Shown here: one piece after another, positions 1 through 551 of the stretch
Layout: every line of letters starts with the position of its first letter
How positions within the stretch are numbered: the stretch's first letter is position 1
From: Minisyncoccota bacterium
Lineage (GTDB): Bacteria > Patescibacteriota > Minisyncoccia > JAHIHE01 > JAGLIN01
Direction: 5' to 3'
Assembly (NCBI GenBank): GCA_023142595.1
Contig: JAGLJF010000015.1
Coordinates: 1-33,999 of the forward strand
DNA: 33,999 nt
Position numbers and translations under genes: made by a program
The notes under the pieces: model-generated
Seen by the model: only the letters and a program-made list of their open reading frames with translations
The model's database searches: none
What the model was told of the DNA's origin: nothing

Positions 1-150
1 TTTACCTTACCAACAAGCTGATAGTGCGTGGGCTCTTCTCAAAGCGATAAATCTTTACCCTTTCGGGACCATCAAATATTAGCTTCAATTTCTCGAAGTT
101 ATTCTTGACTTTGAGGTAGATTCCCACGTTATACTCACCCGTTTGCCGCT

Positions 151-473
151 CCCAGCACCTTCCTGCTTGCTTTATACATTAATTCATAGTGAGTCAAAAC
201 TAATTCTCTTCTTTAGTTCAGAAAAAGCTTTGCCATATTTTTTTAATGTATTTTCTCTTTTAATCGCATCAGACTTTAAAACATAAGATTCATAATAAAC
301 AAGTTTCCATGGTCTAAATTTTTTAGTATGAGAAGATCCTCCATTATTATGTTCTGAAAATCTTTTCTTCAGATCTCCAGTAAATCCAATGTAAATTTTG
401 TTTTCATTTATACTTTTTAGAATATAAAGATAAAACATAATTTTGATATTAAAGTAAACAAAAAGGTGCTGGG
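151..473 (-). other. Insertion in 16S V1 (helix 6): 24-nt pairing arms 151-174 / 450-473 with the ORF in the loop
   Basis: RNA arms CCCAGCACCUUUUUGUUUACUUUA and UAAAGCAAGCAGGAAGGUGCUGGG pair at 23 of 24 positions (three G-U wobbles, one A-C mismatch). Confidence 0.85.
184..438 (-). CDS. Single-domain GIY-YIG endonuclease-like protein encoded inside the 16S rRNA insertion
   Basis: MFYLYILKSINENKIYIGFTGDLKKRFSEHN..: YLYIL / YIGFT / LKKRFSEH pattern of GIY-YIG (UPF0213/YhbQ-like). The track start at 513 lies in conserved 16S sequence, so the internal ATG at 438 is preferred. Confidence 0.8.
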   Translation of the reverse strand: MFYLYILKSINENKIYIGFTGDLKKRFSEHNNGGSSHTKKFRPWKLVYYESYVLKSDAIKRENTLKKYGKAFSELKKRISFDSL

Positions 474-504
474 CGCTCGACTTGCATGCCTTATCCACGC
501 CGCT

Positions 505-535
<31 letters not shown>

Positions 536-551
536 AATAAAGTTAAGAGTC

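Follow-up and report, generated by a model that had tools for sequence, protein, structure and literature searches.

A GIY-YIG nuclease gene in helix 6 of a 16S rRNA gene: a probable hairpin-bounded mobile element

The 16S rRNA gene at the start of the analysed DNA is interrupted in helix 6 (variable region V1) by an insert that is probably one copy of a small mobile element—about 0.3 kb in length, bounded by a hairpin, and with a single minimal GIY-YIG gene. What we observe are the boundaries of the insert, empty sites, a family of relatives, sites that are used repeatedly, selection on the stem at the RNA level, and selection on the protein. As far as the accessible part of the literature goes, GIY-YIG ORFs in non-intron insertions of CPR rRNA were already known (PMC11270868 and previous studies that it cites), and so were the intervening sequences (IVS) of bacterial rRNA, which have been described for a long time and whose origin and function are still called unclear (PMC4990558).

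The insert in helix 6 and its nuclease gene

The window—the whole stretch of 33,999 nucleotides that was analysed—opens contig C7 of a 1.04 Mb genome in 74 contigs. Its 16S gene is encoded on the minus strand (Rfam RF00177, 541..1, model positions 1–261, 117.7 bits), and the match leaves the window at its start, where the contig also ends. The contig includes about 225 nt of 16S; the remaining 16S and all of the 23S were not found in the MAG itself. The 16S 5′ end up to helix 6 (E. coli ~1–68) occupies 474..541 on the minus strand according to RF00177 and is 100% identical to G002, a genome of the same genus, over query 1–71. On the other side of the insert, the same model places the continuation of the gene at 1..150 (minus), running to about model position 261 and off the contig end, with 98% identity to G002 over query 389–541. 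Helix 6 of G002 is uninterrupted and reads CCCAG-TTTA-CTGGG, and it is also empty in four genomes of the same family. Hence, an insert of about 313 nt (156–468) stands in place of the tetraloop, and the location in V1 given for 151–473 in a preliminary description is confirmed by the Rfam match and by the empty helix. With both flanks matching G002 at 98–100%, chimerism is unlikely.

The extended helix 6, as read from sequence and fold, is formed by the 5′ arm CCCAGCACCTTTTTGTTTACTTTA (473..450, minus) and the 3′ arm TAAAGCAAGCAGGAAGGTGCTGGG (174..151, minus). By comparison with the empty site and with the left and right arms of the family consensus described below, the 5′ arm is made up of host CCCAG (469–473) and the element arm CACCTTTTTGTTTACTTTA (450–468), and the 3′ arm of the element arm TAAAGCAAGCAGGAAGGTG (156–174) and host CTGGG (151–155), all on the minus strand. 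The element core therefore spans 156..468 (minus; 313 nt) and stands where the empty helix has its TTTA tetraloop. The comparison indicates that CCCAG/CTGGG belong to the host and that CACC...GGTG arrived with the insert.

Within this stem, 23 of 24 positions pair, three of them as G-U, with one A·C mismatch, just as had been described from the sequence. The fold of 140–480 reaches −90.6 kcal/mol (z = −7.4), and none of the shuffles was equally stable. Swapping flanks between relatives yields a score of 28 in only 0.4% of pairs; the window's stem scores 29, and its arms are beyond chance. The ORF at 184–438 (minus) lies entirely inside the stem loop and leaves 9 + 11 = 20 nt of non-coding sequence between ORF and stem, again in agreement with the first account. 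The same account had argued against a group I or II intron, and an Rfam cmscan of the window matched SSU rRNA only and no intron. It had also raised the question of whether V1 primers miss this lineage. The 27F primer sequence is found in the window, so that V1 primers should anneal, with an amplicon that overshoots the usual length by about 0.3 kb.

The contigs of three genomes of this genus stop inside 16S—the window at position 1, G002 at the end of its contig C9, and G001 at the end of its contig C6. Two of these ends fall at the same base, and that of G001 falls exactly at the insertion point, which fits, and does not prove, a mixture of filled and empty alleles.

The ORF encodes a single-domain GIY-YIG nuclease of 84 amino acids (184..438, minus; Pfam PF01541, 64.9 bits). 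It bears all family-invariant residues—Y5, Y16, G18, R26, H30, and E62, which are kept in all aligned relatives—and AlphaFold2 predicts one confident domain (pLDDT 91.5), whose nearest structural matches are UPF0213 (1zg2) and Slx1 (7cq3), a structure-specific nuclease. The Pfam match, the invariant columns, and the fold all place the protein in the GIY-YIG superfamily. Homing endonucleases of the I-TevI type have the same catalytic fold (PDB 1ln0, Foldseek probability 0.91) and the catalytic-type residues Y, Y, R, and E in common with it, but the window's protein has neither an intron host nor a separate DNA-binding domain. No such domain beyond the catalytic fold is present in the predicted 84-residue structure, and targeting might be provided by machinery acting in trans. 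Among eight measurable close pairs, seven show dN/dS values of 0.036–0.153, including two pairs inside 16S, in helices 6 and 9; these ratios, mostly 0.04–0.15, indicate that the ORF is under purifying selection.

Relatives, their sites, and their ends

Relatives of the ORF are numerous in CPR and occur in some other bacteria, and viral contigs yielded no relative of the nuclease profile. Taken together, the class-level and CPR relatives suggest that the host is probably of a Parcubacteria-type (Paceibacteria) lineage. The species collection contains 74 such loci; within the same class, 172 of 384 genomes carry relatives at E <= 1e-15, with up to seven copies each. Their positions, typed with Rfam, ARAGORN, and BLAST against E. 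coli rRNA, are far from random. In 16S, copies sit in helix 6 (the window, L008, L021, L035, and L176), helix 9 (two loci), helix 17 (three), and helix 44 (one); five further copies lie in 23S at E. coli 131/177, 275/285, and 540/554, and six in RNase P RNA, all of them in sense orientation. The inserts of L008, L021, and L035 lie inside complete 16S genes. The V1 hairpin-cap form, which had been called notable in the preliminary description, is not unique to the window.

A co-oriented tRNA starts at −20 to +53 nt from the ORF stop in 21 of the 74 loci, and an antisense tRNA in one. At such sites a 5′ tRNA fragment precedes the ORF and an intact tRNA follows it, or the order is reversed, the partial tRNA copies being about 11–37 nt long. 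Copies are also found directly before the start codons of leuD, typA, pyrG, recR, and others, with these four names read by eye from the translations. A strict automatic test of start-codon adjacency gives 8 of 36 versus 4.9% at random positions, which is modest, so that this class of sites rests mainly on the read cases.

On the tree, 29 changes of site type over 10 labels are required, as compared with 48.8 after shuffling. A nuclease lineage specific to V1 was considered and rejected, as the helix 6 copies need four changes on the tree. The neighbours of the window's copy include RNase P and helix 17/helix 9 copies, with many forks being weakly supported.

Inverted repeats with a score of at least 18 flank the ORF in 53% of 105 relatives versus 6% for swapped flanks, and with a score of at least 24 in 46% versus 1.2%—a conservative control, because the arms share a consensus. 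This consensus reads CCCnCACC(T) beside the start and (A)GGTGnGGG beside the stop, and the arms of the window fit it. Repeats of the same consensus also bound ORFs in 23S, RNase P RNA, and tRNA genes and before start codons. Being common to unrelated sites, the arms of the window are hence both an RNA stem and the ends of an element. Clear inverted repeats are missing from about half of the relatives, mostly tRNA-linked ones, and one mechanism may therefore not cover all of them.

The position upstream of recR allows for a direct comparison of a filled site (L183) with an empty one (L190, from another genus of the same family). The flank matches of these two loci overlap by 7 nt, and ATGGATC stands on both sides of the insert. 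Such a 7-nt target duplication is read precisely at recR only; in 16S it is not definable, because the site itself is a palindrome. A species of the same genus as L183 carries a second copy at another locus (L167), and the match between both copies spans the 20-bp inverted repeat end to end and stops exactly there. In RNase P RNA, P3 is a plain, empty hairpin in relatives of L159. The ends of L183 and L167 together with the empty recR and P3 sites show that the inverted repeats travel with the ORF.

In one bacterial family, the recR position is an insertion hotspot (L187, L188, L189, and L190) that is found empty or filled with a GIY-YIG element, an S23 element, an ORF-less hairpin (L188, in another species), or an unrelated sequence of 129 nt.

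Other GIY-YIG ORFs were seen in different surroundings. At L018 (3001–3762), the ORF runs in frame into a prepilin-like N-terminus (GFTLIELVISIFILAFAIIG), and a copy of the left end of the element follows the ORF stop. The genome of the window itself carries one at 1340–1792 of locus L078 (contig C60), between two tRNA-Ser-like sequences, the first of which is interrupted in its T loop by hairpins, while the second only begins before the contig ends. Within the window, a second GIY-YIG ORF (1930–2232, minus) is flanked by a REP-like palindrome, TGTCATYCTGAAYTTRTTTCAGRATC, as an inverted pair at 1889–1914 and 2244–2269. The genome contains about 95 occurrences of this palindrome (49 forward and 46 reverse, with at most three mismatches; reversed control, 0), and a related ORF on contig C23 also lies among such palindromes, about 0.5 kb from a LOOT RNA (RF03000, 67 bits; L079, 2223–2348). 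One might conceive of a GIY-YIG counterpart to the REP-associated transposases. Another ORF of the window, of 299 amino acids (965–1864, minus), has no match in Pfam or NCBIfam.

The stem in RNA and the fate of the insert

If the arms act in the transcript, as RNA, deviations from Watson–Crick pairing are predicted to be G-U rather than A-C. This is the case for rRNA, RNase P, and tRNA sites (28 G-U versus 3 A-C, p = 5e-6), whereas other sites show 14:14; the contrast between both groups (Fisher p = 0.0012) is weakened, though not removed, by some of the sequences being related (L021 and L035 with four each). The suggestion that pairing is kept at the level of RNA, made at first from the window only, thereby gains support from the family, and the wobble bias argues that the stem is maintained as RNA within RNA genes. 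Arms existing only at the RNA level were also considered and rejected, since those at non-RNA sites show no such bias.

We propose that the element, with imperfect inverted repeats of the consensus CCCnCACC...GGTGnGGG as its ends, would insert wherever the host tolerates it—into the loops at the tips of rRNA and RNase P helices, into tRNA genes, and just before start codons—and at RNA-gene sites always in the sense orientation. In a tRNA gene, the insertion would leave a partial tRNA copy. In V1 of 16S, the ends would extend helix 6 such that the rest of the 16S could fold, and the ORF would be read from the rRNA transcript. The nuclease might cut empty sites, into which the element would be copied by homing or transposition. 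RNase III would then cut the stem of the transcript without religation, leaving a 16S with a break at helix 6, whose pieces the ribosome would keep together as it does with 23S IVS. Counted against a mobile element is that sites in essential RNA genes are also expected from selection alone.

For the RNA, excision by RNase III without ligation appears to be the likeliest fate. The genome has an RNase III gene, and this enzyme cuts 23S IVS stems of similar length, such as the 28-bp stem of Coxiella (PMC4990558). The stem of the window, with 24 positions and one mismatch, barely exceeds two helical turns, which makes cutting plausible and not certain. The main rival with respect to RNA fate is that the insert is neither excised nor cut and stays in the mature ribosome, where it would enlarge helix 6 at the surface. 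This helix is variable and lies on the ribosomal surface, V1 expansions of about 30–190 nt that carry no ORF are common in the class, and the pairing kept at the RNA level would fit a stem that must persist. Retention would, however, expose a single-stranded coding loop of 255 nt to nucleases, would have to withstand the RNase III of the genome, and would require the RNA to serve as mRNA too, as the ORF is under selection. We hence regard it as the less likely of the two fates. Five loci of the same class bear V1 inserts of about 100–190 nt with no recognised ORF and often with long complementary ends, and these are possibly decayed or non-autonomous copies.

With respect to mobility, the element resembles insertion sequences and MITEs in its inverted-repeat ends, multiple copies, apparent target duplication at recR, and the ORF-less hairpin found there, and its ends are common to copies at unrelated sites as in insertion sequences. 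It differs from these in having no known transposase (DDE, HUH, serine, or tyrosine), the GIY-YIG nuclease being its only gene. GIY-YIG homing and restriction enzymes are known, some of which are said to cut palindromes. The main rival here is a classical homing endonuclease gene that uses the DNA of helix 6 by chance, the repeats being half-sites of a palindromic host target. A conserved protein would suit such a gene, and at tRNA and RNase P sites the right arm does indeed consist of host sequence in its outer portion. Yet CACC...GGTG is missing from the empty helix 6 and the empty recR site and hence came with the element, the same ends recur at unrelated sites, and the recR position of another species holds a hairpin without any ORF. 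Classical homing into host palindromes thus seems rather improbable to us, and we keep to the hairpin-bounded element as the preferred reading.

Insertions are found in 48% of CPR 16S genes, many of them introns, and a non-canonical intron—self-splicing or spliced by enzymes—could be thought of for the window as well. The 20 nt outside ORF and arms are too few for a ribozyme, no Rfam intron model matches, and the survey that gives this percentage reports all GIY-YIG ORFs of CPR rRNA insertions from inserts unlike either intron type (PMC11270868); an intron is thus very improbable. An assembly artefact or a dead copy—a chimeric join, or a relic accompanied by an intact rrs—might be suspected from the contig stopping in 16S 150 nt from the insert, from G001 stopping at the insertion point, and from the absence of the remaining rRNA operon from the MAG, but is hardly credible with complementary arms joining both sides, flanks 98–100% identical to a genome of the same genus, an intact ORF with all invariant residues, and the same type of insert in the complete 16S genes of L008, L021, and L035.

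Relation to intervening sequences

Like a bacterial rRNA IVS, the insert of the window lies in the loop of a variable rRNA helix and has complementary ends and no catalytic intron core. In particular, the 23S IVS of Coxiella likewise consists of a stem of inverted repeats with one small ORF in its loop and no ribozyme; its S23 ORF is decaying (PMC4990558), unlike the conserved GIY-YIG ORF here. The preference for an IVS over an intron, expressed in the preliminary description, holds insofar as the insert is IVS-like and as the V1 loop of some relatives carries S23 IVS ORFs. It falls short insofar as the insert exceeds an enlarged helix 6, with inner arms that follow the family-wide CCCnCACC/GGTGnGGG consensus. 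An S23 (23S_rRNA_IVP) ORF is usual, though not strictly defining, in IVS that carry an ORF, whereas the window codes for a conserved GIY-YIG nuclease under purifying selection, whose family has copies with the same ends outside of rRNA and a target duplication at one site.

The S23 ORFs meet the GIY-YIG elements at more than one position. Pfam 23S_rRNA_IVP ORFs are found in the V1 loops of a locus from the same order (L124, E = 3e-24) and one from the same class (L128, E = 1e-23), and at the recR site of L187 (E = 1e-36). The S23 loci of the class (n = 30) share the layout of the GIY-YIG elements: inverted repeats flank 77% versus 18% of swapped flanks, and a start codon or a tRNA often comes immediately after the right arm. 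At loci L216–L245, S23 ORFs lie outside of rRNA, and their flanking inverted repeats are built of AT-rich tandem units.

Tentatively, and with slightly less than even confidence, we suggest that IVS and GIY-YIG inserts form one previously unrecognised class of minimal mobile elements, which is hairpin-bounded and carries one gene—either for a GIY-YIG nuclease or for an S23 four-helix protein. Its members would insert in sense orientation into the loops of structural RNAs, tRNA genes, and positions just ahead of start codons, and their hairpin would shield the host gene. For CPR rRNA, the window is a case of the non-intron 16S insertions with GIY-YIG ORFs surveyed before, a survey whose accessible part describes no bounding inverted repeats, no V1 hairpin-cap form, and no relatives outside of rRNA (PMC11270868). 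The literature searched, which covers few subscription journals, contains no report of shared ends, of non-rRNA sites, or of sites shared with S23.

If the one-class reading is true, IVS would be the rRNA-resident subset of a general class of transposons. The empty sites, the target duplication, and the shared ends and sites make the idea of IVS as mobile elements directly testable. On a practical level, V1 amplicons of such lineages run about 0.3 kb over the expected length, and in this genus MAGs break off within 16S. More generally, the hairpin ends suggest a simple rule for the life of a parasite inside essential RNA genes.
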